Below, piece by piece: positions 28,141 through 62,750 of a DNA stretch of 64,000 nt. How positions within the stretch are numbered: the first letter of the stretch is position 1; every line of letters begins with the position of its first letter. The DNA is from Myrmaecium sp. VS I D KN 1 (taxonomy: Eukaryota > Ascomycota > Dothideomycetes > Valsariales > Valsariaceae), in NCBI GenBank assembly GCA_019775845.1, contig JADQAV010000008.1, positions 186,001 to 250,000 on the forward strand. Direction: 5' to 3'. Position numbers and translations under genes: made by a program. Below the pieces are notes generated by a model. That model made no database searches and was not told the origin of the DNA. It saw nothing but the letters and a program-made list of their open reading frames with translations.

Positions 28141-28149
28141 CCCCACTGA

Positions 28150-28990
28150 GAAAAGAAGGTAAATATGCGTCCGCAACAAGTGGAAGAACCGCTGAAGTCA
28201 TAGTCCCACCAGGGACCTCCAGCAGCGCTGGATTCGGGACACATGACATTAGCGGAGAGCAGGAGCGGGAGTAATTCCCGCGAGGTCTCCCGCCCCTGCT
28301 CCCAGCAAGATAAATATAACCTGCGTCCGCAACAAGTGGAGCAGCTATAGTAGTCGTAGTCCCACCAGGGACCTCCAGCGGCGCTGGATTCGGGACACAT
28401 GACATTTGCGGAGGGAGCAGGGGCGGGCGGGAGTAATTCCGGCAAGGCCTCCCGCCTCTCCCCCGGCCGTGGATTGGGGACACACGACATGGTGGCCCCG
28501 GTGAAATAGGCGAGCAACACTTCCCGCCGGGCACCACCGCCGGTGGATTCGGGACACATGACATGTGCCCCCATGAGCTGAAGGGGAATGGGAGGCAGGG
28601 GCGGGAGCAAAAGCGGTAATGATACCCGCAAGGCCTCCCGCCCCGGCCTCTCAGCGGAGTGGATATGACATGCGTCCGCAACAAGCGGCACACAGCCGAC
28701 ACTTCTTTACGCACCCCAGCCCCCGGCACCGCTGAATTCGGGAGACATGGCATGTGCCTCGGTGTGACAGGAGGGGAGCGCGAGGGCGGAGGAATGCCCG
28801 CAAGGCCTCCTGCGGCTGCTCCCAGAAAGATGCACATCGTCTGTGTCCGCAAAAAGTGCCACGCTGCCCCAAATAGCTTTTTTTTTCCCCTCGCATGTCT
28901 CCCGGTGATATAGGAGGGAAGGGCGCAGGCGAAGGGATGTCCGCAAGGTCTCCCGCCTTGCTTCACCCACCGGTGGATTCGGGACACATG
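28150..28990. repeat. Degenerate GC-rich tandem array with hairpin units
   Basis: The motif ATTCGGGACACATGACAT or close variants recurs at about 28233, 28389, 28467, 28548, 28735 and 28978, spacings that fit a base period of about 80 bp. Between motifs lies an inverted repeat of the GGCGGGAG/CTCCCGCC type around a partly conserved loop (TAATTCCCGCAAGG). The clearest is 28257-28271 (GAGCAGGAGCGGGAG) with 28287-28301, 14 of 15 paired. Low stop density leaves a 407-codon minus frame (28085-29308) in which MSCVPNP recurs, but it has no ATG at its beginning and a second minus frame is open too. Confidence 0.8.
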
Positions 28991-30839: not shown

Positions 30840-31262
30840 TCCGCCCCTTTAGTAGTATATTTCTTTATATAGTATTATAATATATCTACTATATACTAGA
30901 GGTATAATAATATCAGTATTATCCTTATCCCTATTAGTAGAGGATCGGTCCTCTATATTAGTTTATATAAAGGATATACGCCGCTGCCGGGCTTAATATT
31001 AAAGTTAGTATATAAGACTTTAATCTAAAATACTAAGCTGAAGTATTTAATCTCTTTAATAATGATTTAAGAGAAAGTATAATAGAGGAGGAAGTCAAGA
31101 ATAGTAAATAAAGTAAAGACTTTTATTTCTCTTATAAACTATCTATTAATTTTCTAGGGTAAAGTAATAATACTAGACTATATTAGATTATAATAGATTT
31201 TTATATACTAATTCAATCCTCTATATTATTGATGAAGGGAGGGTGGATAGCCAGGAATACCG
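30840..31262. mobile_element. Short AT-rich retroelement remnant
   Basis: A RIP-like AT-rich patch. Its right part (about 31105-31262) matches 25835-25985 of the large fossil: TTTTATTT..TATAAACTA, then ACTAGACTATATTAGAT and CTCTATATTAT..GGGAGG. It is therefore a second, truncated copy of the same or a related element family. Both edges are sharp. Broken and old. Confidence 0.65.
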
Positions 31263-31615
31263 GGGGGACGTGCTTCCACCGAACCGGGGACCATAAGGGA
31301 GTGTGAGGGAAAGATTCTTGTTGCTCGACCATGAAAATAAGAAGTATATAGATTTCCACCCAATTCCAGGCGGCTAGAGAGTACGGCAAAAAGATTCTTC
31401 TTGCTCAGTGGTTGGCAAGTTGAGGAATAAGCGCCCTTATAGAAACCGAAAATGCGCACGACGTTACTAAAGTTCCCATGCGGACTGTGGAGGCAGTGAA
31501 CCGGAAAGGAGGCGCCGCGAGAAGCGATCAGCATGGCGTTCACATAGGATTGACAGGCAGTGGCGAGCTGACGAATTCGACCATCGACCTGGAGAAGGAA
31601 CGGATGGGCCGGCAT
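31226..31615 (-). CDS. Hypothetical 129-aa frame
   Basis: The ATG at 31615 opens 129 codons with acceptable composition in the first two thirds (QVDGRIRQLATACQSYVNAM, GNFSNVVRIFGFYKG). The last residues are encoded in the edge of the AT-rich remnant, so the natural C terminus may have been replaced. A second minus frame (31467-31685) is also open. Weak candidate. Confidence 0.3.
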   Translation of the reverse strand: MPAHPFLLQVDGRIRQLATACQSYVNAMLIASRGASFPVHCLHSPHGNFSNVVRIFGFYKGAYSSTCQPLSKKNLFAVLSSRLELGGNLYTSYFHGRATRIFPSHSLMVPGSVEARPPGIPGYPPSLHQ

Positions 31616-32108
31616 CTGCCAAACCTCTCTCTATCCAGCGGATATCAGCACCCACTACTCGTACGAAGGGACAAAGGGCTACCACTTACCTGACGGGCAG
31701 TGTGGCAAACTTGATACAAGCATAACTCCGCAACGGCCGTTAGATGTATAGTAACTGGTTGGTTTTGCTGAGTCGCGAGCTAGACCTCGTGCCCCGTCAC
31801 CCCTTTCTATCGCGGGACGTGAGCGGATACGTTATCTGCTATCTGCAATGACTTGAGTGTGCAATGCCTCATACTCGTAAGAGGCTGTCGGATGCAGCCA
31901 TTGTTTAGTTTCTTCAGCTCGCTTCATAGTAAGGCCGTGTGGTTTTGCTGTCGTGCCCATCCCTCAAACCAACTAGAACAGCGCGAACGAAAACCTCATA
32001 AAATGAACGTCTCATCCAGCAATCCCCACGAATCCAGCCGACACTAAAAAGCCCCAGTACCAGGACCCCAACCGCCGCCAGGAAGAAGAAGAAGGCAAAG
32101 AAAAGGGC

Positions 32109-32572
32109 CTACAAAACCTGATCCCACGCCGTACGAAACTGCTCATACTCCTGGTCGCCATTCAAAATGAAACTGCGGAGAGCATCCTCCAGCGGGCTCG
32201 CAAGGCGAACGGCGCGGACGCCGTCATTGCGGATGACGACGGCATCGAGCTGGACGAGTATGTAGCCGGTGGTGCGCTCAACTCTCGCCGGGCCCAGGGT
32301 GATGTGCATGCCTTCCTCGGAGATGTCACGGAGGCGACCGCTGATGTAGAGTCCTGTTGCGAGGGTGTGGTGAGTGGGGGTCGTGAGGAAGGGAAGGAGG
32401 GGGGGAGGAAAGAAACCTTCTTCGAGTTCCACACGCAGGATGGCGCGGCCGATGTACCTGCGGCGGAGGATGCTGTAGAGGCGAGGTGAGGTGGGTTAGT
32501 GATGTGGTGGTTGTTGACTGCGGTGAGGAGGTTGGATGTACTGTACCTTAGCAGGATCTCGTGACGAGGCAT
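32109..32572 (-). CDS. Orphan two-exon protein, 129 aa
   Basis: Exon 1 is 32572-32547 (26 nt, starts MPRHEILL). The intron is 32546-32473 (74 nt; GTACAG donor, CACTAAC branch, CTACAG acceptor). Exon 2 is 32472-32109. The joined protein has a basic, hydrophobic start (SILRRRYIGRAILRVELEEG), a proline run (FFPPPLLPF), then a well-structured region (YISGRLRDISEEGMHITLGP, YILVQLDAVVIRND, LEDALRSFILNGDQEYEQF). The mix of strands and helices suggests a small globular domain. There is no signal peptide. Frame is preserved exactly across the intron and ends at a natural stop, so I am confident that it is a gene but cannot assign a family. Confidence 0.8.
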
Positions 32573-33167
32573 CTTGCTCTTGCTCTTGTCCTTGTGTTTG
32601 CTGTGCGTCGGTTGGCAGTGGTGTAGAGAGTACTTGGTTGGCAGTGGTAGGGAGAGTACGGCGTCTTTACTTGTGGACGTCGGTATGGTGGTTGTTGTGG
32701 GAAGAGAGACAGGCAGGGCGGGAGGGAAGAGAAGGGAAGTAGATGCTGCAGTCGAAGCGAGCTAGCGTTGCGGCAGGCTGGCATGTCAGGCAGGAAAACA
32801 GAATTTCCCCGGTGAGTCATTTCGTCTTGACCATCATGACCAACTTGGAATGATTAAGGAATGTTTCATTGCCAAATCGCTTTATACTGCCTCTGCCGAC
32901 AAGAACTATTACGTGCTTTCTTGTAACTACTCAATCAACCAGTAAGTGGAGGCATAGCCGGAGACCTGAGATGAAAATAAAGGCAGTCTCTATATTCGAG
33001 CAATCTTCGGCCTTGAGCTAGGCGACTAGTGGACTATAGATATTTCCACAGTCCCTGTAGAAAAGGATATGGAAAATGACGGGAGCACATCGCGAGAGAA
33101 TCTGAAATCGGAATGATTGTTTAGAAAGATATCTACTCGTTCACCTCCATGGCTTCCTCGCGATCGC

Positions 33168-33740
33168 TTACATATGGACAAAATATACCCTGTGGAAACC
33201 CAGGTGTGAGCAGCCAAACTCGCCTCTAAACCACTTCCCTACTCGGTCTGATCCCCGGTCGAATAACAGTTCAGCTGAAGCGGTACATGATATATAGCAG
33301 CAGTCAAGCGACCTAGGAAATTCTGGGCGACCGGGCTTCCTAGATCGTACTGACAGGCTCCTCGAATGAGCGTTCCAAGTCGCATAACATGTCTTCCCGG
33401 CTCGACAGCACCCTGACCAGCAGGCTTGAGTATAACCGCAAGGGGATGGTTCGCGGCTGCGAACAAAGCGGATGTAGCAAGTGATCAATCCGTCGTGCGC
33501 TCTTGCGAGGATGGCCAGCTTGATATCCTGCCCGGAAAACGCTGTTTTTTTACTCCCCTTGAACCCGGGAGCATGCGCCGCGATGAGACAGCTGTCGATA
33601 CGGCGAGGTAACTGGCCCGCTTTCCGTCCTTCAACGCCAGGAGAACCAGAGGGACAAAGTGAGTGATTGAACTCCATTTTCCTCCCGTGGCTCCTGTCGA
33701 TGACCTATCTAATCGGACTTGGAATGCTTCTTCACGCATT
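33168..33740 (-). pseudogene. Coding-like relic spread over three frames
   Basis: Reading the minus strand, coding character moves between frames: THFVPLVLLALKDGKRASYL, then SGQDIKLAILARAHDGLITC, then NHPLAVILKPAGQGAVEPG and VMRLGTLIRGACQYDLGSP. The order is consistent and each piece looks like part of one ordinary protein, but the frame changes lack splice sites, so it is probably a decayed gene. I do not recognise the family. Confidence 0.35.
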
Positions 33741-34502
33741 TAGCGTAGGAACACTAGACCGTTCGCATCGTGGAGCTGATGATGCGTTCGTGATCCTTCT
33801 CAGATTTGTTTTTGCTCTGCTCCTCTCTTGTAATGCCGATGATACCGCCCTGTTCTTCACCATCTTCGATGACACCTGTCATATATCTTCTTCCGCGGCT
33901 ATTAAGTATTTCAGCCTCCGCGAGTCGCCGCCGCTGGTACCTCCATCTTTTTTCCCTTGTTCATGGCGTGTTGTGCACCGCAGGATCTTCCTCTTGACAG
34001 CAGCGACCTGCTTACCCGATTTATATCGACCAGACCGTCTACGCAGGCTGTTATTCCCCGCAGCCGCTATCCGTCTCCAGCCTTCGGACAGGATTTATTG
34101 CCGGGGAAGGACGGTGATATCAACGCTACCCGGGCTAGTCCATTTCCAAGGGGGGATGGAGTTTCATCTGGGAAGCGGTTCAACGGCGGGACGATTTTAT
34201 CCGGCTGTTCATTCGATACCCCCTGGGCACCGCGCCCCCAGCCGCATCAAGAGAGTTCCTAGCGTCGTAATGGAGTATACCCGGCGTATTCCCCATAAAG
34301 CAGCGTCTTTTTAGAGTAGCCGATCTAGAGCTAAAACAGCTCGCCGCTCATGGAAGCCACGGATCTCAAGTACGTGTTCCTGGGTGGGGTGTCCCTGCGC
34401 TCTGTGCCAGTTCTCCTTTTATATACCGTCTGTATGCCTGGGAACTTCGCTCGCCCCACAGATCCAGGGGCAGAAGCAGTAGCCTGGACAAGCCGCTCGT
34501 CC

Positions 34503-34928
34503 TTATAAGCATGATGCCATGCGACCCTCCGTATCCGTGCTCGTTCCGCGGCCGAGGGCCGATCTGGAAGGTCGAGGCGGGCGCAGAGCGCTCCGGCATT
34601 CTTTCTTAACGCGGGTTCTCTGCGTATGACGTGTCCGATTCTGGATGAAGATCTGATGGCGCAAGGTATCCCGCGTGTATTCGATCGCTCGAAGCGATTT
34701 GGTGGAGCGGGAAGACTGAGCGCCGCGAGAGAGCAGAGAGCGCTCCGCTGCCAACGGAACGGTACGTAACGTGTAGAAGTCGGCATAGTCCACGGGCAGA
34801 TGCGTAGCCAATCGCGCGTCGTCGAGCTTCAGCGGGTGAAGCAAGAGCGAGCGGATAGCCTCTGAACGAAGGCTAGGTAGTGACGAAGTCGTTCCGCTGA
34901 GGAGTTCGAAGGGCTGCGCGTCCCCCAC
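34503..34928 (-). pseudogene. Coding-like frame, 141 codons, unknown
   Basis: A minus-strand frame with natural composition (PFELLSGTTSSLPSLRSEA, HLPVDYADFYTLRTVPLAAE, LRAIEYTRDTLRHQIFIQN). It begins with GTG and not ATG, and upstream DNA in other frames also looks coding, so it is likely a fragment of a broken gene or an internal exon. Confidence 0.3.
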
Positions 34929-35435
34929 GTCGTTCTTCTAGGCTCGATGACAGTTATATCACGGCTAGTGCTGGGAGCCGTTCGTCCGGATCGCATATCC
35001 TCCGCGGCTGGCCGGAGGGTTAGAGGGTTTGTCAAAGTGCCGTCGGGTGTAGACGCGCGACATACCCGTCGTTGGCACACGAAGGGATTTTGCCGTTGGA
35101 TAACCTCCGTGGAACAAAACCGTCGGTTGGGTGGGATGGATGCTATTAGTTCAGGCAGAGCGCTGCAGGTGGATTGTTTGCTCTTGAATGAACCGGGTAA
35201 ATCCCATCTAGTCGAGCCTTCATCACCGAACGGGTGGATAAAGCAGTATAGGAGGCCAAACACCATGCTCGTTGCGTGTGTAGTGCTGTGTGATTCTCAT
35301 TCGCATATATCCCGCTAGAATCATCTACCAACAATCACAACACCTCGACCTCTACCCCCATCAAGTCTCTTCCCCCTCCCCTCATTCCCTTCAACCCAAT
35401 CCGTCTCGCCAAATCCCCCCTCCATCCCCCGCAAT

Positions 35436-35735
35436 CTACATCTCATCCCCCTCCCTCAGCACCTCCTCATCAAAGTCAAAAACCAGCAAATCCCCATCCC
35501 CCTCCTCCAACCTCAGCAACCCATGCAGATCATGGTCCTCGGCCGGATCGGAGCCGCGGATGAAGAAGAACGCGACGACGCGGCTGGCGACGTGCTCGAC
35601 GATGTCGTGGTAGGTGTCGGCGAGGGAGGTGAGGAGAGCGCATGGTACTGTGGGGGGGGAGGGCGTAGGTTAGTGGGTGCTGTGGGATGGGAGGGGGAAG
35701 GGGGGCCGCTTACGGGTTAGGAGGGTGAGGAACAT
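35436..35735 (-). CDS. Orphan two-exon protein, 77 aa, acidic tail
   Basis: Exon 1 is 35735-35714 (22 nt). The intron is 35713-35648 (66 nt; GTAAGC donor, CACTAAC branch, CCCCACAG acceptor). Exon 2 is 35647-35436. The product starts hydrophobic (MFLTLLTLPCALLTSLADTY, possibly a signal peptide or anchor), continues as an amphipathic helix (HDIVEHVASRVVAFFFIRG) and ends strongly acidic (EEGDGDLLVFDFDEEVLREG). A TTTC microsatellite lies 54 bp upstream of the start. The next gene, at 36602, is on the same strand and has a similar acidic C terminus (FELEVLRGEE), so the two may be distant relatives. Confidence 0.8.
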
Positions 35736-35788
35736 TGTGGTTTCTTCTGGTTTTGGCCTTGGTGCGTGGTGGAGGGTGGTTTGCTTGG

Positions 35789-35790
35789 TT

Positions 35791-35838
<48 letters not shown>
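35789..35838. repeat. (TTTC)n microsatellite
   Basis: About twelve copies of a tetranucleotide, in the promoter side of the gene at 35436-35735. Confidence 0.95.
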
Positions 35839-35839
<1 letters not shown>

Positions 35840-36601
35840 TTTGGTGGTTTGGTGTGTGGAGGGACGGCTTGCTTCGTCTATCTAATGGACGACGAGTTAG
35901 AACGAGACTTGCTTGTAATGCGTGATGGGTTATACATACCCGTGCGGCTTGAGTGTGAGTGGCGGTGGGGAGGAAAGGAGGAAGCGAAGCTCTGCAGTAA
36001 AAACAGCTAGAGAAATACAGCCGAGGGCCCTGGTCGCCTGCCCCGGGTAACCACCAGCCGCACGGCAGATTCAGATGGCAATCATAATTCATATCTCTTC
36101 AGCCACTGCCACCGTCAATTTTTCCTTTTCAGAGCGATCAATATATTACGGCTCTATAAAACACCATCATTATCCCAAATAAGAAGCTTTGGCGCCTTTA
36201 CACCGATCGACAAAAGCGCTCTACACTCTTTACCAGCCCTATATCTCCATCGTGCTATAGCAGCGATTCGGTTAGAACCATTCTAAACCAGTGTATTCGT
36301 GTATAAAGTGATCAAGGACGCCCTCCTACCGAATTATATCGGCAGCAGCCAGTCTTTATCCTTCTGTCGACGCAGCTATAACGCTGCTTTTTAAGTTATA
36401 GCGCGTGGAAAGGCATATGATATAAACGCCAGGATACCCACGACAGCAAGCAGTAGAAGTGGCGAATATCAACCACTACGAAGATACCATTATCTATCAA
36501 AATCCACAACCCAGCCGATCCCATCCATCCACCCTCCCCTTCCAAAAAGGCATCACATACCCATCCCCACGCCCTCCAAGCGCCATGCCAACACAAAAGC
36601 A

Positions 36602-36781
36602 TCACTCCTCCCCCCTCAACACCTCCAGCTCAAACCCCTCCTCCTCATCCCTTCCCCTCCCATCCGGGCTCTGACAGCAGCAGCAGCAGTGATACAGCAC
36701 GACCATGACCAGGCCCCAGAAGCTCAGGATGTCGAAGAGGATGAGGATGAAGGTCACCATCGTGAGGGCTTTGGGGTCCAT
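36602..36781 (-). CDS. 59-aa single-pass membrane protein with a Cys5 cluster
   Basis: The ATG at 36781 opens 59 codons. A hydrophobic segment spans residues about 6-31 (MVTFILILFDILSFWGLVMV, then VLYH) and is followed at once by five consecutive cysteines and a charged acidic tail ending FELEVLRGEE. A cysteine cluster directly after a membrane span is the usual context for S-palmitoylation. The leader contains a good intron (36890-36830, 61 nt; GTAAGC donor, ATCTAAC branch, CGCAG acceptor), which supports transcription of this strand. It is too short for a domain match; membrane location is well supported, function unknown. Confidence 0.75.
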   Translation of the reverse strand: MDPKALTMVTFILILFDILSFWGLVMVVLYHCCCCCQSPDGRGRDEEEGFELEVLRGEE

Positions 36782-36799
36782 TTGGTGTGGTGTGTTGTG

Positions 36800-37850
36800 G
36801 TGTGGTGGGTTTGGTTTGGATTATGTCTGCTGCGTCGGTGGGGTGTTAGATATGGTTTATTTACAGGCAGGAAGGGGAGTGAGGGCTTACGGTTCTTGAA
36901 GTGTTTTGCGCGGAGGTGGATGTGGGGGTTCTAATTGCGTTTTCTGGAGGGAAGAGAGACTGGGCGAGAGAGTGAGACGCCAGCCGAGGAAGAGCCTGAG
37001 GTACCTACGTGCGAACGTGGATACCCTTGACATCGCCAACCTACCTACAAACTCCCCGCCAAACTACAAACCCCAACTTCTATCAACGCGCTGACGGCAA
37101 ACACAGTCTGGAAGTGAAATTCGCATCCGCAAACGTCACGCGTTGACTGGCAAGTTCGATTGCAGTCTAAGCACACCCGTCGGCGCGACTTGCCCGCTGG
37201 AATCGGACAGAACGACCGTTATGAAAAGCCACCTGACCTAGGGCATGACCTGCCGCGAAGCGACCCATTGGTTGGTTCCATGGAGACAACGCGATGCAGA
37301 CGACCGTCTACTCAATACATCGAATCCGTCGGTGATGGTGAATACGCTAAGACGGACGCTGTTGGCTGAATCCGGTTGTCCGTTGCCTTTCACCCTCAGA
37401 AGCACACGAGGTTGCTCCGGTTTTCTCTCTATCCGAGTGGTCCGATGACGGAGCTCGAACAAACGAAGCAGATAACCGAACGGGAGCACAACTGAGCAAG
37501 CGTATCCGAAGAAGCAAGACAGGCCGGACATAACGAGGCTCTCATTCTATCCCTGCGTTCACTACCCCCGCCGGGAGGCCACGGATATGAGCCGTTGCCC
37601 ACGGGAAACAGGCAAGGTCATTACGGGAGCGAAAAGCTAGCGATGCCCGACCCGTCCTCTGTTTGCAATAACGGCGTTCGTTTTGCAAACTCGATCGGAC
37701 GCGCTGGAAGAGAATAGGGGGAGGTGTCTCCGGAACGATTGCCTCTGAGAACCAATCAGCGGCAGTATGATGTTACCGGTACAACAGCGAATACGAAACT
37801 GATCCTCTCTCTCTAAAAGACACTCCGCGACTCTCAGTTCGTAAAGAAAG
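36800..37850. other. No supported gene beyond the leader intron at 36830-36890
   Basis: Short frames only (up to 97 codons, 37238-37531 minus), with no motif and no splice support. Confidence 0.35.
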
Positions 37851-37856
37851 ACGTCA

Positions 37857-38453
37857 TGGTGCCCAAGGCAAACAAAGCAGTTTTCCACCACGAGGGCAAG
37901 CCTGAGGAAACAGCGAGCAGAATACGAGAGCAAGCCTGGATGAACAGCGAGGAGAAAACAGCCGGAAAACGAGATGAATCCGAGTCGCCTTACAATCCCG
38001 GCCTCCTCTATCGAGGCTAATCGCGAATGGAAGGGTTCGACAACGGCATTCTCTGTGATTGGCGGAGCACTGGGGCAGAAGTCACAGCGTGTAAACATGG
38101 TGACATTTCCAATGTGGATACAGATTGACCTACTCGAACGGAACAAACCACAACGCTTTGCTCCAGTAGCACGCCAGGAACCAAAAAAAAATTTCGGGAA
38201 CAAGAGGGGAGAAAGGAGGGAGATCCTTGCCCAAAGACTAGGAAAGTGTCTTCGAAGGAACAACACTGGACAAAGCCCAAGACGCCGCAAAGGCAATTAC
38301 TTACAGAACTATGGATCGAGTTGTACCAACGACGCAGTATATTGGGAAGAAACAACAGAATGTCTACAAATGGATGGACCCAGTCGATGTCTATTCAGCG
38401 GCGAATTACCGTTACTTCCAGATCCGTTGTAGTACAATCTATCGATTGCCGTC
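37857..38453 (+). pseudogene. Coding relic on the plus strand
   Basis: From ATG 37857 a frame reads MVPKANKAVFHHEGKPEETA and REQAWMNSEEKTAGKRDESE. After a TAA it continues MEGFDNGILCDWRSTGAEV. Further on, another frame reads VFEGTTLDKAQDAAKAITYR, VVPTTQYIGKKQQNVYKWMD and VDVYSAANYRYFQIRC before a TAG near 38453. All pieces have coding composition and the same orientation. The breaks lack convincing introns, so this looks like a decayed gene. The long minus frame opposite (37637-38296, no ATG) is probably its shadow. Family unknown. Confidence 0.4.
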
Positions 38454-39841
38454 TCACCAATAGCGACATGACCTATCTGATCGAGAGGTGTTACACAGGC
38501 ATGAATCACTGAAGGATCTATAAGCCTGGTATAGTCCAGAACATCGCTCGGCCTGGGTTCGAGTATCTCAGGAACACACGGCGTCGCCAGGACGGAATGT
38601 CCTCATCCGCTCTCCCGCGATGGACGATCGCAGACGAGAATACACCGCTGGACGGCTTCGCCTCAGAAACCCCGGGAACGGATGCGGTAGGTATACCTGG
38701 TTCAGGCGCGCGGCCAGGTCCGGGCAGGGTGAAACGAGGCGAACCACTTGTTCCGATACCTCATCGAGGGTTGGCTGGTGGAATTCTATAGTTGCTGTCA
38801 AAGGCTTCCTCGCGCTGTCCCAGAAACCGCATTTCTTCTTCTGGGAAGTCGGTCGCGTTGCGGATACACTCTGTTATATAACCAGGTCGCTGAAGGACGT
38901 GGAACGAGGCTTCTAAGGCGTTTGATATACGAGACTTCAGTTTTAAGATTGTAGCATTTGAGGGGCGGGTGATATACTGCGTGCGACCTCTATACTCTGT
39001 CAACCCTAATGGAAGGCCCTCTGCTCCTCTATGGAAAGACGTAGCGGACATGCTAGGTGCTTGGCGATGCTGTTCTCTAGGGACAAACGGCGGCCGGACA
39101 TAAGTCATATATATAACCCGGATAGTCGGGAGAGGTGAAGAAAAATAGGCTTCCGGGCGCCCAGAGCAGAGCACCATCAACATCAACACCGCGCTCCGGG
39201 GTCGGGACCCGTGTGGGAGTAGCATAGCCACAGCATCCCGCCGCCAAGATAACAGGATCGGCATACCCTGACTGGAAGGAAGGAGGCGAAGTGAATACTG
39301 TCGGAGTCACGGACGAAGCGGCACCCAAGGCCGTCCGCCAGAGCGGCCAGCCTAACCGCACCCCCTTCTTCCGCCTTTCTTCGGAGGTTTTGGCTGGGGC
39401 TTGCGCCTTGGGCCTCGGCCAGCTGCTGCGTGCGCCGCGCCCGTCGTTCCCTTGCTGTCTCTCCGGGAACCTCGGAAGGCACCGGCAGTATTGGCAGGTC
39501 CCCAGCCGGTCGTGCGCGTGCTGCGCACCGTCGAAATCCGGCGGGTCAGTCTCGGTCTGCTCGCCTGTTGTTCCCTCTCCTCCATGGGACACGCACGCTG
39601 CGTGGTCTCGTCGAAACGGAGGATGGGATGGCAGTGCGTGTCTTGCTGACATCGACATAGACCGGCGGTTGCCGGATGGATGGCCGATGCGAACGCGGCG
39701 AGACCTCGCCATACTGGATGACCGCCGACACACAGCCGGAGCAGCGATGGAGGCGGTGGAACGAGGAGCTGTCAGCAGGTGTTTTGGAAGTCGGTCAGCC
39801 CACAGAAACCAACCGCCGCGTGCCGCCGAAGAGCATCACCC

Positions 39842-40342
39842 TCACATGCCGGACCGTTGTGCGCCAGAGTCCCTAGTACTGCCCTCGACCCTCGTCGATG
39901 CCCGAGCACGTACGCAATCTTCGCAGAGGCGATGCAGTGCCAGGTCGGTCAGTTGCGTAGTCCCGCTTCCGCCAGCTGCCGTGGTCATTCTTTCGGATAT
40001 ATAGGTATCTAACAGCAAGAATCGACGTCCATCGCGTCCACCGCCCCCATTCTTCACTGCTTTCCTCCGCAGCTGAGGTGTGAGGATCGAAAAGATTGTG
40101 CTGCTCCATGCGGTGCGCTTGATGAGGAGGTTCGTCGAGAGTGGCGGGCCAGGAACCGCGGGGCGTCTTGCGATGGGAATTGGGAATCCGTTCGTGATAA
40201 CCGGCCGGTCAACCCTTCCCGCATCCCGGAACAAGCCGAGGAAAACGTTATCTCTTCCACCCCTTACGCTATAGCAAGCGCACGAAGCCTCAAGCCTGAA
40301 GCGTTCCCTGCCGAGATCCTCCCAAATCTCGGCTTCGGGCAT
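39842..40342 (-). CDS. Ambiguous coding frame, 166 aa
   Basis: The ATG at 40342 opens 166 codons (starts MPEAEIWEDLGRERFRLEA). An overlapping minus frame from ATG 40109 (MEQHNLFDPHTSAAEESSEE, TRWTSILAVRYLYIRKNDHG) to 39873 looks at least as natural, so the true gene may splice from one into the other. I see no canonical intron that does so cleanly. No domain recognised. Confidence 0.3.
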   Translation of the reverse strand: MPEAEIWEDLGRERFRLEASCACYSVRGGRDNVFLGLFRDAGRVDRPVITNGFPIPIARRPAVPGPPLSTNLLIKRTAWSSTIFSILTPQLRRKAVKNGGGGRDGRRFLLLDTYISERMTTAAGGSGTTQLTDLALHRLCEDCVRARASTRVEGSTRDSGAQRSGM

Positions 40343-40453
40343 GGTTGATCAGATGCGTGATGGTATACATCCGCTGAGCGGAGTCCTCATCGAGGAAGAA
40401 AGGCGCCGACGCCGCGATTATACCTCGACCTCTCCTCCCCCCACGGTACGAGG

Positions 40454-40720
40454 TCATATATATACATACTCCCTGCTGCCCTGCCTCAGGACGCAGTGAT
40501 GAATAGGTATGCAGTTATAGTAGAAGGAAGACGGAGGAGGAGACACTGCGGCGTCGAGCCCTCCGCAAACTTCAATACGAGAAAAGCTCCGCACGGCTTT
40601 GTCGCCGAGCCGGAACAGAGCGTTGTTGTTGAGGTCTTCCAGGGATGGGTGGAGCGGTGAGATAGCGTTGGTAGCCCGACGGGCTGTATGGTGTGTTTCA
40701 TATCCTCCGCTTTCCTCCAG
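40454..40720 (-). CDS. Exon or relic without ATG, 88 codons
   Basis: The minus frame reads LEESGGYETHHTARRATNA, ISPLHPSLEDLNNNALFRLG, DKAVRSFSRIEVCGGLDAAV and FYYNCIPIHHCVLRQGSREY, to a TGA at 40454. Composition is clearly protein-like, more so than the ATG-initiated minus frame in the same DNA (40486-40755). A TAA precedes it, so it must be either a 3' exon or a broken gene. Unknown family. Confidence 0.4.
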   Translation of the reverse strand: MEESGGYETHHTARRATNAISPLHPSLEDLNNNALFRLGDKAVRSFSRIEVCGGLDAAVSPPPSSFYYNCIPIHHCVLRQGSREYVYI

Positions 40721-40759
40721 TTAAGTCCGGCCATAGGGGGGTAGGCTGGATGCAAGAGT

Positions 40760-43100
40760 ACATTGTGCGCGACGCGGACCAGTCAGCCATTTGCCGGCGT
40801 GCTCAAGCCATACCCACAATGTGGCGATCGCGCCAAAGTGGCCAGTGTGAGGGTGTTAAGCAGGGCCAATAGAGCAGCACAGCACATCAGCCGTGACGGC
40901 GTGCGGGAGAAATGTGTAAGTGTGTCCGGTAAGTCGAGCCAGAGGATGGTGCCCGCGGACGCAAGAGAGACGAACGGCCGTGATGCCCCCCTGTCGCGCG
41001 AACTGCTCGCAGTGGCGTAGATAGCTGCGCGGCGGTGAGCGGCGGGAGTCGAGGAAGGGAGTAGGGGTTTTCGGACTCGCGACTGCGGTCGCGCTGTAGG
41101 AGGACGAAGACCCGGCTTGACGCCGGTGCACGAACGATGATAGACAGCTGACGGTCCAGGTCGCTCTCGAGCTAGACAAACGATCCTACCGCAGCAGAAC
41201 GTATGACGCTCTTGCGGTGATGGTCGCAGAGGCACGCGATGATCCAAACTATACAAGTGGAGTCTGGAGCAGAGCAAAGAGCGAGGAGCGAGCGGCGTTG
41301 ATTGGTGTAGGAGACGCGGTTTATATGAGGAGGAAGCGATGATCCGACAAGTACCAGTTGTTTGAGGTACGATGAGCGCGCCGCCTTTCTCCGCAGCTGT
41401 TGGCTCTGACGGATCAAATATATATATAAAGATATGTGGAACTGCTTTTGCGAGACACGAAGAACGATGTCGTTATGGTTGATACAGAGCGATGGAGGCT
41501 GCTTATAAGCCTCCCCTATTCCGTCGGCACTACCGGAAAGGAAGGAAGTTTGTCTTGCGCTTGCTGCATGATGCTAGGTAGTATGGACATGCTACTCCGG
41601 CAGTATGCGGATATGGATGAGGCTGTCGGTCCTCTGGTTTCCTGTCCCGTCGCGTCCCGTGTTTGGCTTGCTCAGCGATCCGAGATTGAGCAAATGAAAG
41701 CCTTCTCCTCCGGAAATTGAGGGAATGGCCGGACTAACTATTCGCCAGGGCATGTATTTGGTCCATTACCCCTCATTGGTCATTGCAGGCCCTCTTCTCG
41801 TCCCATGGTCGATTTGCTCAAATACGTCGATTTGCTCAAATATTCATATACTATGCAAATTAACACTGGTAAAACGGTGGAAATGCAGATCGCGGCGTCT
41901 AGCCTCCGCTACACAAATGACGGCATATGCATATTCGATCACGCTCTCCGTCGAAAGGCTCCTGCGAGCCACGTGACAATCATCTAGTAGCAAATACAGC
42001 CCATCCAACCGCATAACGTGACGGACAGCGGCAGCGACAGGCCCTTTACGGTAACGATCATGACAAACAATAGAAAAACCCAATGCATATCAAGCAAACA
42101 GAAGATAACAGCCATGCATGTCAGGTCACTGAATCCCCGTGGTTTGCCGGTGTTCGGACGAGGTGCCGTTGGAATACGGTGCAGGAGCGGATTATCTATG
42201 TTGCGGGCCGTGCACCTCAAGGCTGAGATTCTACGCACAGACCGTCTATGCACGCTCGCTTGTATTGATGGGCAGCAGAAGTTTGCTGGTCTGGCTGTGA
42301 GATACGTGCAGCTTATGCAAACTAAGTTCTTTTCATCGATGCAGTGCATACATTTCGTCTCCTCACGGCACGAAGAGTAGAAACATGCCAATCAACACCC
42401 AACGAGCAAACAAGAACATGCCAAAGCCGATTGGACTCAGATATATCCTCATCCAGCGCACCTCTTGTAGCCAGTATCGAAAAGACAGAGCATATACTAC
42501 CGCTCGAACTTCAAAGTAGTATGAATCACCAATTATCATCCAGACAATTGGCTATCCTGTTCCTCATATCGCCCAGCCAGCTCTCTCTGTTCCCCGGCGC
42601 TCTGCCAAGCTCGTCCTCCCGGTGCCCCGGCGCGTGGACGGACGAGCCTGAGAAACAAACACCACGCTTGCCTATGATTAGGTCGACCTTTCCCTGCCAG
42701 AGGCCGTGTGTTGGCCTGAAAGCACCCTTGCAGGCCAGGCCTCATCACAGGCTCCGGCCTTCGCAGGCTTTCCCGCAGGCCATTACATAGGCTCTGACTT
42801 TTCAAGCGCCGCCTTTTAATAGGCCATTCCTGACATAAGTCTGATAGCCCACGTAAAAGCCCGGTACACTGGTTTTGTGGTGCCTGTGCGGAAATGACTG
42901 TTCGATCGAGGGGAAGGGTGGGTTGGTGTAGTGATTCCCTAGCTGCAGGTGTGGTATCCGACTAGGTGACTGGGTGCCTGCATACCTGCATACCTGCCTG
43001 ATCCCCAGAAAGCTTGGGGTTCTGAGTGCATCGGCGTCTGCGTGCCTGAGTAGGTGCCTGCTGGACTCTCTGCTAATCCCGCCTGAGAGCGTGTCCGAGT
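40760..43100. other. Ambiguous frames; short direct repeats
   Basis: Both strands have open frames (40783-41277 minus; 42018-42380 plus against 41984-42391 minus) without a deciding feature. GTCGATTTGCTCAAATA is duplicated in tandem at about 41806-41841. The stretches 42690-42790 and 42970-43110 are rich in CCTG/GCCTG repeats of irregular spacing. Confidence 0.35.
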
Positions 43101-43123
43101 GTCTGCTTGACCTGTCGTTCTCT

Positions 43124-43603
43124 CTACAGGATAGTGCCTGCGAAAATAGAACAGATCAAAGATCTAAATGAGATATGTGCGAAAGCAGTGTTGTTTTTGC
43201 CCGGTTTCACCCCGGGTACGTGCGGCACGGGATGGGCGTGGGAAGGGCTCCATGCTGGGCCAACCGACCCGCCAGGCACACGAGTGACATGTACAGAAAG
43301 AGAATGGATCGGAAAGGTTACTGTAACATACGCAGCGTTACTTACATTGCGTTTTCTCAGGTATCGATACACCTCGAAACTTACGGGGCCAAGAATGCAG
43401 GGTAATGAACAGGTATTAGATACCCAGGAACCTGTAAGACGGATGGCCACCGGCAGGGGAGCACATGCTTGGCGCCAGTCCTTCTCTCTTTCCCTTCCCC
43501 AGTGGCTGTGGGTGATGCAGACAAACGGACTCACGAACAATCCACCGCGGTCGTGAGTGAGTTTGGATCCATCATCAGCATGCCAACAAACCTCTGCCAC
43601 CAT
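43124..43603 (-). CDS. Hypothetical 159-aa frame
   Basis: The ATG at 43603 opens 159 codons on the minus strand: MVAEVCWHADDGSKLTHDRG, HSHWGREREKDWRQACAPLP, FEVYRYLRKRNVSNAAYVTV. The frame is open upstream for another 29 codons. The plus strand is open as well (43107-43556). Two GTAAG-type donors lie inside, so it may be partly intronic. Weak candidate; no domain recognised. Confidence 0.3.
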   Translation of the reverse strand: MVAEVCWHADDGSKLTHDRGGLFVSPFVCITHSHWGREREKDWRQACAPLPVAIRLTGSWVSNTCSLPCILGPVSFEVYRYLRKRNVSNAAYVTVTFPIHSLSVHVTRVPGGSVGPAWSPSHAHPVPHVPGVKPGKNNTAFAHISFRSLICSIFAGTIL

Positions 43604-43784
43604 GCATCGCGCAGCTAGCTGCCTTGCTATATCCACAACTGCGGCTCGAGCCGCATGGGTGCATTCACAGATACCACCACGCTGTCTCACGGTTCTGGCT
43701 ATTCACCATCTATCGACCTCGACTATTGATCCCTGTCGGTCTGCCTGGAGGTACTTGTCCACCTAGCAACGAGATACTGTTCTC

Positions 43785-43865
43785 AATAAGTCAAGTATAC
43801 TATATTATAAGGTGACCTGCCTTCTCTTCTCTAATAAGTATATTTATAGTATAAATATATAGGCC
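43785..43865. other. Small AT-rich patch
   Basis: About 80 bp of TA-rich DNA (TATACTATATTATAAGG, then TATTTATAGTATAAATATA) inside normal-composition DNA; possibly the last remnant of a RIP-mutated insertion. Confidence 0.35.
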
Positions 43866-44626
43866 GCGACCGTCCGAGTCTTCTGGTTTAAGCAGAGGGA
43901 GTTCTTCTACTCTCTATCCAGCCTGAAAGAGGATCGGCGTCCATGGGATCATACGGTGACCGGCACGTCCGTGTCCTCGGCCATCATCAAGGCATTCTGT
44001 CCTCCTGCCCCTGACGGCCTTCATCTTTCTAACTTTTTCTCCACGACGATAGCGAAGAGCGATTCGGTTGCGGCAAAGAAACCGCATCTAATCCCATCGC
44101 GGATATACCACGGGCAACAAATCCACCATGGTCCGCCTAACATGCGCATACCCCGCTCCTGTGGAGGGAGGATTACGGACTGAACGTAACGACCTGGTAT
44201 TTGTTCACAACCAGGGTGCATCTTACCATCAAGCCGCTCACGTCCCCATGGGACGAGGAGGGGCCAGATCGTGATACGACGCTCAGGGGACCATCTGGCT
44301 GAGGAAGATCCATAATTGAGGTACCGATCCGTGATATGCTTCGGCTGGGCAGCTTCTATCCATCCCTTGGAATAGCGTAGATGTGCTGCAACCGACATCA
44401 ACGAGCCCACGCCCGAAGAAGAGCGCTGTCCTCAATGGCTGGGCCCAGCATATCTGGTGTTTCATAGCCTTCGCGAAACCAGGCACCCAACACAACCCCA
44501 AAGTCCAGCCGAGAGTCCTGCAATATCTACCGGCGCCGCCTTCGCGATTCGCAACTCCACAACCGCCACTTCATCCCATTCCCATCGCAAGAAGACCCTA
44601 CCAACACCACGCCTCCATCTACCGAG

Positions 44627-57279: not shown

Positions 57280-57608
57280 GGGAGGTAGGTGGATGGGAAG
57301 GATTCGGCAGTGTGGTTTTGTAAGGAGGTGGATTTGAGGATCCGGCAGTAGACGCAGGCAATGTGAGAGGCCTCGATACCTCAGGCCTTGCCCGTTGCCG
57401 GGAACTTTAAGTACGCACACACGCTGTAAGCGAGGGGAGGGTTATTTCAATTCCCACAGGCGACTTGGCTTCCGTCCTTTCGACTTTCAGTCGGTCACAA
57501 CATCATCAACCTTTACACTGCGTAAGTGTCCATCAACCACAACCACAACCGTGCAAGCCAGTTGACTGATATGCCTTGCTCGAAGGACTTCATCCCATCC
57601 TCATCGAG

Positions 57609-58305
57609 ATGGAAAATCCGACGGATCCGTCCAGGTCCTCCCGCCCGCAAGGTAAGTCCTTCACCGTCGTCCCAAAGTCAACCTTCAACTAACTTCAAAG
57701 CAGAAGTGGTGGGCGGGAGGCCTTCTTCGCCATCCGTCGGCATCCTCCCTGTCGTTCGCATTGCGAACAAGGGCGCAGGCCCGTCCAATGTCAGTCCACT
57801 GTCCCAAACCCCCATCCCACACACACTGCAGACACTGACGATGTCCTGTACGTAGTGCCGGCGGGCATCTGCGCCCTGCTACACTGCGGAGAGGGTGTAT
57901 GGGTGGAGAAGGGAGTCCTTCGCAGGCCAGTGGTCTGGGTTTTGTTACCCAGAAGGGCTCCCTTCTTCACCTACACCCCTCTTCGCAGCTTTCCATTGCT
58001 GCGTCTGTCTCCGGTAAGACTTCTTCCAATGCTGACAGTTCTACGGACGAATGATCACTGACATGCCCTCAGCTCTCCTGCAACCGCCGTCACGAGCAGA
58101 GGCAGACCCACCGTGCCTAGCGGTGGGTCTGCCTCTGACACCATGCAATTCCGCTTTCAGTAAGTAGTCTGACCCAAGCGATGCGTATCGAAAGCGGCTG
58201 CTAACTGTCGCCAGACATCATTATTCAAGAAAACATCCGGGATGCGGCCTGGTACGAGGCGGTTGTGTGGGATTGAATGGGCATGTCATGTTTAAAAATC
58301 AATAA
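57609..58305 (+). CDS. Five-exon orphan gene with exonic hairpins
   Basis: Exons are 57609-57651, 57704-57789, 57856-58013, 58073-58159 and 58215-58305. All four introns (52, 66, 59 and 55 nt) have GT/AG ends and CTAAC or CTGAC branch sites 10-20 nt from the acceptor. The product begins MENPTDPSRSSRPQEVVGG, then PSVGILPVVRIANKGAGPSN, YTAERVYGWRRESFAGQWSG, and a Ser/Thr/Arg segment (SPATAVTSRGRPTVPSGGSA, SDTMQFRF). The last exon is less certain: my frame reads HHYSRKHPGCGLVRGGCVG, but a better-looking frame there reads NIIIQENIRDAAWYEAVVWD, which needs another phase. An AATAAA poly(A) signal overlaps the stop (58301-58306). Exons 3 and 4 contain strong inverted repeats. No domain is recognised. 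Confidence 0.6.
57907..57966. repeat. Inverted repeat in exon 3 of the 57609 gene
   Basis: AGAAGGGAG (57907-57915) pairs with CTCCCTTCT (57958-57966). Inside it CTGGGT (57935-57940) pairs with ACCCAG (57947-57952). Confidence 0.8.
58097..58137. repeat. Perfect 17-bp hairpin in exon 4
   Basis: CAGAGGCAGACCCACCG (58097-58113) and its exact reverse complement (58121-58137) flank a 7-nt loop (TGCCTAG). Part of a coding exon by the gene model above. Confidence 0.95.
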
Positions 58306-58570
58306 AACATTTGATATCATTATTCTTCAGCTTCAGTTTGACAAGATCGGAATTCATTTTGGCTTCCTTCGGGGGACACTGACTACTAACAGGCAAAGGG
58401 CAATTGAGTGATTAAATGGCAGCTCCTTCCAACCGGAAGGGAAGCGTAAGACCATCATCAGCGAGCGAGTACAGGTTTAGATGAAAGCAAGCAGGTTCCC
58501 CCTCACCCATTGGGTTCCTGGTCCTGAGCAAATCCTTCGGAAGGGCAAAAACAATTGTCCCAAGAAGTCC

Positions 58571-58617
58571 GGCCTCAACCAGAGGCCGCGGCGGCGGGGG
58601 GAATATTCATTCCCCCC
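58571..58617. repeat. Two short hairpins side by side
   Basis: GGCCTC (58571-58576) pairs with GAGGCC (58582-58587). GGGGGGAAT (58596-58604) pairs with ATTCCCCCC (58609-58617) around a 4-nt loop. Confidence 0.85.
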
Positions 58618-58641
58618 TAACACGAAAAGTGCGACCTCATC

Positions 58642-58692
58642 TTGGAACAGCTTGCCCGCATCGATGAAGAATATCCGGGCAAGCTGTTCCAA
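58642..58692. repeat. Perfect 17-bp hairpin
   Basis: TTGGAACAGCTTGCCCG (58642-58658) and its exact reverse complement (58676-58692) around a 17-nt loop. Both strands read nearly the same peptide: plus LEQLARIDEEYPGKLFQ, minus LEQLARIFFIDAGKLFQ. Confidence 0.95.
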
Positions 58693-58839
58693 CCCGTCCA
58701 GCTGAAGAAGAGTGAGAGAGACCGCGTCAATCAACATTACCGTACGGTAAGTACTTCTCCATAAGCGTCGACGAAATTCAGTGCTGATGAGAGTCCCCGA
58801 GCAGGTCGACGCTGTCTGTACTTCCCACAAGACAAGCCC

Positions 58840-59013
58840 GGTATGGGGTGTGCTGGTATCATCAAAGGTTTCAAAGACTTCTTGCAGGCGGGTACCATCA
58901 CCATGGTCCCGGAGATCGAATTCCTTCCAGAGTTCGGTCTCCGGGACCATAGCGATGGTACTCGCCCTGAAGAACTCCTTTAGACCTTTGGTGATGCCGG
59001 CACACTCCATACC
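58840..59013. repeat. Imperfect 174-bp palindrome inside a coding exon
   Basis: Arms of about 82 bp (58840-58921 and 58932-59013) are roughly 80 percent complementary. The innermost 29 bp (GGCGGGTACCATCACCATGG onward) has only three mismatches. Many mismatches fall at third codon positions, and both strands encode the same peptide: plus GMGCAGIIKGFKDFLQAGTI, minus GMECAGITKGLKEFFRASTI, both followed by MVPE and, past the centre, LRDH.DGTR. Confidence 0.85.
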
Positions 59014-60032
59014 CCAGAGTCGAGAAGGGCTGGCGAATCCCCTCGCCAAGTGGGCGGTGTTCTTCCGCGGTCCTATCCAGTTCGTCATGGAGGGAGGCCG
59101 TTTCGTCGGGTCTTCTTTTCCGTGCGCTCGCTCTATCTTTTCATCATGCCATATCGATGGCATTACTTCTTTGGGCGCCGGCGCGGCGCCTGTGTCGGTT
59201 TCATCCACGAATTCCAGGACGTTTGTTCGCGTCTCTGGATGCGACAAGAACCGTGTGCTCGCTTTTCCTTTTCATCCTGCCTTCACAGCAGGGCGGGAGG
59301 ACGTCGTCCTCCTTATGACAAGGTAAAGTGCTTTCTTTTCTTCTCCTTCTCCACCAGTTAACTCCCTTCGAATATCAGACTGACAAGCGTCTGCAGTTCG
59401 ATCCGCTGCCGGCGCGGCACGCCGCCTGGCCGACCAACTCGCGCCAGGCCAAGCGGCTCGCCATTCACAACGAGTCTGCGAGTAATACCGGGCTGGCCAG
59501 CATATTTGAAACTGGCGCTAAGTGCTTGTGTGTCCCCAATCCAGGGTATTATCTCTGGGTTGGGGGCCCGGTGAGGATGAGCACTCCTACTGGTTTGCCG
59601 GCCCCTCTCGATCGTCTGATGGCCTGCTGTTTTTGCTGGCTTTCGTGGTAAGCTCTTGAAGCTCTAACTTGGTGATTGAAACTTTTTGCTAATTCATATC
59701 CAGATGAAGAAGCGTTTTGCCTGGGAGGAAAGGGGACGGTGAAGACGAGCAGCCTCTTGCCTGGGAAAGAGGAGGATGAGGAAGACGAACAGAATCAGGT
59801 TGATGCGAAGGGATCCAATCCAAATGGCAGCAGAAGCAAATGTCTTGATCAATTCTTGTAAATCGCTGAGTGTAATTTTATCTATTTCTACCATCATCTT
59901 GCATGTTCCGCTTTCGGCAGTACCTTGATTTGCCCTGCCTAACGCACCATACCTTTTCTCTCGCCCACCGATCACCAAAACCTCTTCCTCTACAACCTCA
60001 CCAATCTCCACAAGACGAACCTCCTCATCAAG

Positions 60033-60242
60033 ATGGAGGTTCCTCACCCCGCCCATGCGGCCTCCGCCCTCCACGAGCGCGCCGACGCCGTATGCCGTCG
60101 CCTGCGCTTCCTCAAGCTCCGATCCCCATCCTCGTTCCCCGAGCACGATGAATATATCGAACGCTCTGTCAAGCTCGTCGCACTCCTCATGGAGCTGAAG
60201 GAGCCTTTGGAGAGGAAACTCACCAAAGCGAACTCCCAGTAA
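60033..60242 (+). CDS. Small helical protein, 69 aa
   Basis: The ATG at 60033 follows a pyrimidine/CA-rich leader. The product (MEVPHPAHAASALHERADAV, CRRLRFLKLRSPSSFPEHDE, IERSVKLVALLMELKEPLER) is helix-rich and similar in size and plan to the protein at 57000-57215 on the other strand. It has no introns. A long minus frame (59694-60278) overlaps it; its 3' part (MMVEIDKITLSDLQELIKTF) has some coding character of its own but no supported start. Confidence 0.6.
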   Translation: MEVPHPAHAASALHERADAVCRRLRFLKLRSPSSFPEHDEYIERSVKLVALLMELKEPLERKLTKANSQ

Positions 60243-60299: not shown

Positions 60300-62750
60300 A
60301 ATACAAGTATATTTAACCTCCGCCCGGCGCCGGCAAGCACGAAGCGATACGGTAACACACCAATCTCATGACGATAGACGCATCAGCTTACAGAGCATGA
60401 TACACGATTGGAACGTGGAACGACGAGTATGGAAGGATCGCGCAACGACGCAAACGACAGAAGGGGCGCTCAATAGAGCTTTGCTTCGCGGCGGGAACAA
60501 GGAGACCGTCCTCATTATCTTGTATATTGAATCGTAATATAACCGCTTTCCTCTCTTCGCCAATACAGCTTTCCTTCTGTGACCATCAGGCCGACGCCTC
60601 GTCATCTATCTGCTGCTCAAGATGTCGTTGCCTGAATCGTCAGGCCAGCGTGATCGTGCCTTCGCTCTGAAGCCGTTGGCGGGTTCGATAGCCAACGCCT
60701 GATGTGACTCCAAGACAGTGGAGAGACCTGGTCTGTACTTACTACGCCTCTGACCCATCGCTCAGACACTTCACTGGCTACAGTAAGTAACATCTGCGAC
60801 ATCAACTGCAAACAACGTCTTCAAAAACCCCCCTCAGGCTCTCTCGGTTCCTCTCATCCTACATACAAGATATAAGCAACGTTATATATCATCGAACTAG
60901 GCCTTTTCAAAAACCTCAGTCTTCCGGGATCGACGAAGCACGACATTCTCTCCGAAGTACGAGACCGCTTATCTGGACTGCGAAAGGCCTTTTTTCAACG
61001 AACATCACATAATGTACACCAAAACCTGAATTTTATCTCGCACGCTCGGCGTGAGCGGAAATCAGCTCTACAAGCACCTTTTAGTTTCCTCAATACACCT
61101 ATATAAATTACCATCACGACTATAATGGTTACTTGCTTTTCTCTCTTCCTGGCACCAGCGGCTTTGAGTAAGGGGAGCTCCGAGAAGTCGAAAACTCGAA
61201 GGCAACACTCCCTACCGTCATAATGACAAGAACGGTTACTGCGTATCCGCCAGGAAGCTTAGATTATTCGTGTGGGAACCTTGTGTGCATAATACTGGGA
61301 TCTCCGTTACGAATTGAAGAACTTTGGGGACAGGAGATACCCGAAGTCCATCATCACTACCTGGGATACCATACCTGGTCGTTGGAAACCAGGGCGATCA
61401 CAGGCGACCTCCTCTTCCTTTGTTCTACTTCCACCTCCCTCTCCCTCCGCTCTGCGCGTTCCGACCAATCATCCTCGCGCCCCGCTCCATCAACCTATTT
61501 TCGCTTCGCGGGCACATCTCAAAGGATGGCCGGCGCCCCACGTCGACGCCAGCACAATCGAACTCAGCTTTCTCGGTTCACATCAGACGGGAAATGGCGG
61601 TGCTCGTGTTGGGTGTCTTGATGAAGGTGGCTTCGCCTGGCGACCGCGGATTAGGATGACTACTGACATCTGCAGCGGGCCCGAGAGGCAGTCGAACCAC
61701 TGTTCCAGACAGCCAGGATGACCCGGACGGTATTGACCTCCGCCGGACTCTATCGATCTCCACAGACCTCTATAGATATAGATGTGACGCCAACCCCGGC
61801 ATCCACACAACCAGATGCTCAGTCCAGCGGTAGGTTACCATCGAAGCGCTCCCAGTATCACGACCTGGCGGCGGTTAGTAGACCCTCGCTAATAGATCGC
61901 AATATAAGTGCCCTACACCGACTCCTATACTAATAATACGCAAACCACGGATATTACTAACACCGAGCCCTCCCTGCACCTTTCCCTTTTATGGCTTCTT
62001 TTTTTTCGCGTTAATAGCCTGATTGAAGTGGACCGAACAAGCTGGCCGCGTGCGGTGGACGAGAAGACCAGGTGGGAGAGCGCTGCAAAGAGGAGGCACA
62101 GAGGGATGTTACTGCGCGACTGGAGGGATTGAGCGTAGAGGGAGCGGGTGAGTGATAGCGGGAGATTGGTCCCTCGGAATATATAAGTGCATGGCCTGGA
62201 GTCTGGATATATGGTCAATCCTAGCTCGTTGGTTTCCCTGTGGCTGATGGCAGGATTTCGATGTCCATTTAAAGAACTATTATATGGTCTAATAGCCAAA
62301 GTATCGGCAGCTAATAATACAGTTCACGGTTCTCATGTGTTTCAAACATGATCCAAGTGATTTTTAAGGGCTTGAAGCCATGCCAAATCCAGTCTCATCG
62401 GCACTTAAGCTAGAACCCAGGCCGATCCAGCCTTTAAATCGAGGCGCAGAACTGTCCACGGATGCTATCACCGCTATCACGCCTCTCTGTCCAGATGTTC
62501 CATACTTTCAGATCTTTCTGCCCAAGATTGCTCGATGAACTGGGCTAGCAGCGTACCAACACCCGTTCCACCATCCCATCCCTCTTTTGAAAGGCCCCGG
62601 TTTGCCATCCCCCCATCTAGCAAAGATTTCCAGCCGTAGAGGATCTCGTGCCGCCTATATAACCGATGATATTAGCGTAGACAGACCACCCTTTGTTGAG
62701 CCTGTGATTTAGTACCACCGGAGCACATAGTTACCTTAAGGCGCCGGGGG
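60300..62750. other. Weak candidates only
   Basis: At 61223-61621 a plus frame from an ATG runs 132 codons (LGSPLRIEELWGQEIPEVHH), but all three plus frames are open there, so the exon structure is unresolved. The stretch 62018-62132 has a short coding-like frame (VDRTSWPRAVDEKTRWESA). A TATA-like box TATATAACC lies at about 62656. Nothing else is supported. Confidence 0.35.

Follow-up and report, generated by a model that had tools for sequence, protein, structure and literature searches.

Repeated template switching probably made a cluster of hairpins in an apparent patchwork of housekeeping-gene fragments

Introduction

What brings many hairpins together in a short piece of a chromosome? 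Hairpins are usually seen only once they have formed, and at the locus described here the birth of several is legible. The locus lies in a fungal genome of 25.66 Mb. The window, which is the whole 64-kb stretch of DNA that was analysed, covers contig C64, positions 186001-250000, and the locus is located a few kb ahead of an AT-rich stretch starting at about 62-63 kb of the window. The original prediction had placed at least six hairpins within about 1.1 kb, all of them in inferred exons of two adjacent genes. We asked what could have made them.

Results

All six predicted hairpins are present, close to where they had been placed. They are given below with the further hairpins and the palindrome of the locus in window positions; a donor is the intact gene that a piece of the locus matches.

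57902-57971, extendable to 57894-57979, no strand: hairpin with 20-nt arms at its core; when extended, 28-nt arms (23/28 paired) and a loop of 30; no donor
58097-58137, no strand: hairpin with 17/17 perfect arms and a loop of 7; no donor
58570-58588, no strand: hairpin F, 7/7 arms, at the edge of an H+-ATPase island
58596-58617, no strand: hairpin with 9-nt perfect arms and a loop of 4, between the H+-ATPase- and C34-derived pieces; no donor
58642-58692, no strand: hairpin A, 17/17 perfect arms, loop of 17, within the C34 copy
58737-58750, no strand: perfect palindrome of 14 nt, overlapping a supposed 5' splice site at 58744
58840-59013, no strand: hairpin C, 84-nt arms (68/84 Watson-Crick), 6-nt loop, right arm at 58930-59013
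59174-59190, no strand: hairpin G, 7-nt perfect arms (7/7)
59421-59457, no strand: hairpin E, 11-nt arms (10/11 paired), loop of 15, at the edge of the U2AF65 island
59534-59565, no strand: hairpin D, 11-nt arms (10/11 paired), loop of 10, in the carrier piece

An inverted-repeat scan of the whole 64-kb window, as the original prediction had proposed, was performed with match +1, mismatch -2 and loops of at most 100 nt. The four top hairpins (scores 36, 17, 17 and 14) were all found at 57902-59013, and the best score elsewhere in the window was 13. Chance had been considered an improbable source, and a hairpin scoring 14 appeared in just one of 500 dinucleotide shuffles of 57800-59100. As a genome control, 24 sampled 10-kb stretches (240 kb) were scanned, and arms of less than 30% GC were dropped. 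After this filter the sample contained 79 hairpins with a score of at least 8 and a loop of at most 20 nt, and the top score was 12, except for one homopolymer G-run at 17. AT-rich hairpins were listed unfiltered, with longer loops, for 5 of the 24 stretches, and one scored 13. By the same criteria (score at least 8, loop at most 20 nt, arms at least 30% GC), 58097-59565 holds seven hairpins, three of them scoring at least 17. At scores of at least 7, 13 hairpins are found at 57500-59900. The hairpins at 57902-59013 are far above chance. Since the four top-scoring hairpins lie at this locus and weaker ones reach as far as 59565, the cluster is genuine and extends further than first described, and its density marks the locus as a hot spot.

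Two other places in the window also carry hairpins. A second, weaker GC-rich hairpin cluster (27995-28650, scores 8-13) borders an AT-rich stretch at 18-27 kb. The start (59998-60166) of a small ORF at 60033-60239 is matched about 54 kb away (L037 1239-1552, C64:300138-300451) by an 86% copy and by two shorter partial ones; where the window has a hairpin of 8 bp (60017-60042), the distant DNA has a perfect one of 13 bp.

The DNA around the hairpins was compared with the rest of the genome, and pieces resembling four intact genes were found, all in sense orientation on the plus strand.

58557-58583, plus strand: plasma-membrane H+-ATPase island, 24/27 nt as in C33
58622-58936, plus strand: partial, frame-shifted copy of the C34 gene, 74% nucleotide identity
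59058-59093, plus strand: H+-ATPase island, 32/36 nt as in C33
59187-59224, plus strand: H+-ATPase island, 35/38 nt as in C33, in a different frame from the island at 59058-59093
59430-59471, plus strand: U2AF65 island, 40/42 nt as in C24
59500-59550, plus strand: mitochondrial carrier island, 45/51 nt as in C4

The short islands span 27-51 nt and are 88-95% identical to the plasma-membrane H+-ATPase, U2AF65 and mitochondrial carrier genes, with genome-wide E values of 9e-11 to 8e-5 for the matches of 40/42 (C24), 45/51 (C4), 35/38 (C33) and 32/36 (C33). Extended alignments scored above 300 of 300 shuffles for the second H+-ATPase part, U2AF65 and the carrier, and above 299 of 300 for the first H+-ATPase part. 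The C34 piece is flanked by two H+-ATPase islands that lie about 40 nt apart within the H+-ATPase gene. The DNA flanking the islands mostly has no similarity of its own to the donors, with the exception of the 3' side of the carrier island (2/300 shuffles), so that it is the islands by themselves that point to a nested insertion. Templated insertion by microhomology-mediated break-induced replication would join segments of distant loci at microhomologies; segments from all four donors are present, and the sequence between islands no longer aligns reliably, which leaves the junctions unreadable. Next to the H+-ATPase islands, 59120-59150 and 59251-59281 form a 31-nt direct repeat (84% identical). 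Judged by these matches, the locus appears to be a patchwork of broken housekeeping-gene pieces.

Other parts of the window were searched likewise as controls. No match was found in 2.4 kb; one 281-nt match (84%) and no island below 60 nt in 3.0 kb; matches of 179 and 161 nt plus pieces of 47 and 64 nt in 2.3 kb; and, at the other AT-rich stretch, many transposon-like repeats with one 38-nt island (97%) within 4.4 kb. A weak control over 32000-44000 (12 kb), in whose listing the query itself was absent, gave one 73% match. Short islands also occur elsewhere in the window, a point against the template-switch reading given below. The 38-nt island (30017-30054) is 97% identical to C27:210901-210938, and 62009-62169 (161 nt) is 80% identical to C5:1021456-1021616. 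The stretches 27100-27196 and 31100-31266 are repeated at many places in the genome and are probably parts of a transposable element.

A mobile element of the Helitron or Pack type could have gathered the fragments, the hairpins being by-products or element ends. Four donors, the found pieces all in sense on the plus strand and an AT-rich stretch of the region with repeated elements would be in line with such capture. We regard it as distinctly unlikely, since a search with 57400-58640 returned no other copy in the genome and capture does not account for new arms that lie within the pieces from C34 and the carrier gene (hairpins A and D, see below).

The gene model of the locus was then considered.

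57609-58305, plus strand: possible five-exon orphan gene (gene 1), open frame over five GT-AG-joined exons
57652-57703, 57790-57855, 58014-58072 and 58160-58214, plus strand: modelled introns of gene 1, giving a product of 154 aa plus stop

The open frame of gene 1 runs through both of its hairpins. Its protein had no relative at E up to 10 among 72 protein-search candidates, no relative elsewhere in the genome and no Pfam family, and a comparison with solved structures returned nothing meaningful (best E 1.4). None of the five open frames of the locus had a Pfam match. The similarity of gene 1 to each of the four donors was not beyond that of shuffles, and the donor DNA search over 57400-58640 matched nothing besides itself. 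Two carrier-like bits in gene 1, 57633-57651 (18/19, pairwise E 0.007) and 57712-57724 (13/13, E 0.29), were discounted. Of the two adjacent genes in the original prediction, at best the first stands. The H+-ATPase islands do not share one frame, and a 5-nt insertion shifts that of the C34 copy, so the second gene and its exons are doubtful, and what had been read as that gene is, to the extent covered by donors, a mosaic of frame-shifted fragments.

The claim that the hairpins are confined to exons fared similarly. The intron model was rebuilt from GT, branch and AG signals, and six hairpins were placed at random in 20,000 trials. The six real hairpins miss every modelled intron, as did 3.9% of the random placements in this post hoc test, to which we attach little weight. 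The palindrome and the presumed 5' splice site (58744) overlap, and the exons of the second gene are those in doubt. Confinement to exons is thus weakly supported. These data also bear on the idea that selection keeps the hairpins for the structure that they give to the mRNA of a functional gene. The frame of gene 1 that stays open through both hairpins, together with the stable folds described below, would suit this idea, against which stand the different frames of the H+-ATPase islands, the frame shift in the C34 copy and the finding that neither genome nor protein searches returned a homologue of gene 1 for covariation. We consider it very unlikely.

Because the donor genes survive intact in the same genome, the birth of a hairpin can be read directly, as an old arm, a new arm and in one case a seed. 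The C34 gene is intact and occurs once in the genome (C34:264635-265774 including the stop, L006 3636-4775). It encodes 379 aa without a Pfam family above the cut-off or a relative among solved structures, and belongs to a fungal family without a name that has a conserved Cys/His-containing core. Its homologues, 33-44% identical, occur in Didymella, Bipolaris, Alternaria and similar fungi, while for U2AF65 an Aplosporella relative is 70% identical and the best match 71%; these four genera are Dothideomycetes, and the relatives suggest a host of that class.

For each arm, the bases agreeing with the aligned donor were counted and compared with 300 shuffles. Six of the 13 hairpins scoring at least 7 at 57500-59900 (A, C, D, E, F and G) could be tested against a donor. 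In hairpin A, the left arm agreed with the donor at 17/17 bases (reached by 0/300 shuffles) and the right at 9/17 (66/300); in hairpin C, the left at 71/84 (0/300) and the right at 42/84 (236/300); in hairpin D, the left at 10/11 (0/300) and the right at 5/11 (296/300). Hairpin E showed the opposite order, with 11/11 on the right (0/300) and 6/11 on the left (249/300). The weak cases, whose polarity rests on few bases, were hairpin F (left 6/7, 11/300; right 4/7, 131/300) and hairpin G (right 5/7, 8/300; left 3/7, 214/300). The distinction between a donor-like and a non-donor arm is clear in four of the six testable hairpins (A, C, D and E), and F and G lean likewise. Since one arm follows the donor and the other agrees with it at the level of chance, the second arm would be an inverted copy of its neighbour. 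Both marks of a template switch are found in these hairpins: a reverse complement within about 100 nt (A 17/17, C 68/84, D and E 10/11, F and G 7/7) and a donor without the reverse-complement copy (clear for A, C, D and E, weak for F and G). Inverted duplication by template switching, one of the explanations put forward in the original prediction, is borne out to this extent. Polarity cannot be assigned to the two strong hairpins of gene 1 or to the one at 58596-58617, since these have no donor.

The direction of hairpin A has independent support. Its right arm coincides with a conserved segment of the C34 protein family, where PG-x-x-Y precedes a K-K/R-x-E motif in 116 of the 120 listed homologues (Y in all 116, motif absent in 4); 12 of the 120 were aligned. 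At exactly this place the sequence is PGITYTVQLKKSE in the C34 gene and PGKLFQPVQLKKSE in the window. The C34 gene also carries CCCG...CGGG at the inner end of hairpin A and GAATTC-CTTCCG-GAATTC at the position of the centre of hairpin C. The latter is a plausible seed of hairpin C, and we infer that fold-back on such a seed in C34 sequence, followed by extension, would yield the observed hairpin.

In A, C, D and F the right arm is the new one, in E and G the left, so the hairpins have no strand polarity in common. Hairpins F, C and E sit at the margins of donor pieces, which is where template switching would be expected to place them. Divergence between arms ranges from 0 to 19% across the hairpins, which makes one single event insufficient and probably indicates several events spread over time. 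In hairpin C, parsimony assigns changes at 8 of 84 sites to the time before inversion (both arms differ from C34), and after inversion 12 changes to the right arm versus 3 to the left (p=0.035); one site differs in all three sequences. The excess in the right arm fits error-prone synthesis or chance and carries no weight. The palindrome at 58737-58750 was dropped as a template-switch candidate; a 13-nt deletion and one substitution explain it equally well.

Chimeras formed in whole-genome amplification are frequently inverted, and an artefact of amplification or assembly might therefore be suspected. Divergences of up to 19% between arms and of 5-26% in the donor pieces are unlike in-vitro copies, an argument without bearing on the perfect 17-bp hairpins, and we hold such an artefact to be extremely improbable.

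Taken together, these results suggest that the hairpins were made by recurrent template switching (snap-back synthesis) in DNA that is rearranged and lies near the AT-rich stretch, a reading to which we assign a probability of roughly 0.77. During replication or break repair, a growing strand would pair with a short nearby inverted repeat, switch to its own or the sister strand as template, copy backwards over about 7 to 84 nt and return, leaving an inverted copy beside its source. The same or a related microhomology-mediated process may have joined the pieces of at least four genes. We infer the polymerase mechanism, the order and timing of events, the arrival of the fragments by the same process and the absence of selection on the DNA.

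Young plant MIR genes originate by inverted duplication of the target gene, and the hairpins could likewise have arisen as an inverted gene-fragment duplication giving a long hairpin transcript, from which small RNAs targeting the parent C34 gene would be diced. The fold energy of 58835-59018 is -131.2 kcal/mol (z -18.8), that of a stable stem-loop as at fungal milRNA loci, and four other hairpin stretches have fold z values of -5.4 to -8.3. Two components of the RNAi machinery were sought and found in the genome, with four Piwi (Argonaute) matches and RdRP matches on four contigs. The left arm of hairpin C has an exact run of 38 nt in common with C34, the right arm one of 11 nt. Mismatches over the six hairpins comprise 12 G-T versus 6 A-C on the plus strand (p=0.24), so upkeep of RNA pairing is without significant support. 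Seven Rfam matches, all to precursor families, were far below gathering scores and place the locus in no known family. Coding-derived loci are frequent among fungal milRNAs in the excerpted account of PMC9757828. A template-switch origin is compatible with later use as hairpin RNA, and this reading, as an account of the hairpins, seems to us unlikely; a small-RNA role of the locus is possible on the folds and gene content described.

Discussion

Our data point to template switching as the source of the hairpins, with one arm inherited from a donor gene and the other copied back from that arm. They make testable why DNA of this kind undergoes template switching so readily, and whether the small-RNA genes of fungi start out as chance copies folded back from the genes that they target. 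It is a long shot that the AT-rich edge acts as a template-switch factory, joining housekeeping-gene snippets again and again and folding them back, with hairpin RNAs aimed at their parents (here C34) and orphan genes like gene 1 as products. Among the titles and abstract openings listed in a literature search, none described a comparable fungal locus.

Microhomology-mediated break-induced replication with templated insertions has mostly been described in disease rearrangements, in which the copies are unchanged. The locus shares with it short pieces from distant loci and inverted local copies at junctions, and differs in that its pieces are diverged. As for fungal milRNA and hairpin RNA loci, the excerpted account (PMC9757828) matches the present locus in the stem-loop, the overlap with coding-derived sequence and the presence of Argonaute and RdRP genes; unlike those loci, this one is known from DNA alone, and upkeep of its arms is without support.

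Inverted-repeat template switching has been described in yeast coding genes in the excerpts of PMC8604942. As in yeast, short pre-existing inverted repeats would have served as seeds, and hairpin A alters several adjacent codons together; unlike in yeast, the changes here go beyond homogenisation to the making of long new arms, in a copy that is broken and fragmentary. Template switches in great apes have a median of 12 nt and a maximum of 128 nt in the excerpted report of PMC7954356, and that of PMC8794818 describes how template switching gave rise to hairpins in genes for microRNA and rRNA. The hairpins studied here resemble these short-range switches of the four-point model (PMC7954356, PMC8794818) in the local inverted copy that replaces or follows its source, in the short loops, in the pairing of one ancestral with one new arm and in lengths that lie within the reported range (median 12, maximum 128 nt). 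They differ from the switches in those accounts, which were called singly between related sequences, in that several lie within 1.5 kb amid pieces of distant genes. The locus thus fits the short-range template-switch kind, and it is set apart by how many events fall within 1.5 kb and by their mixture with pieces from four genes.
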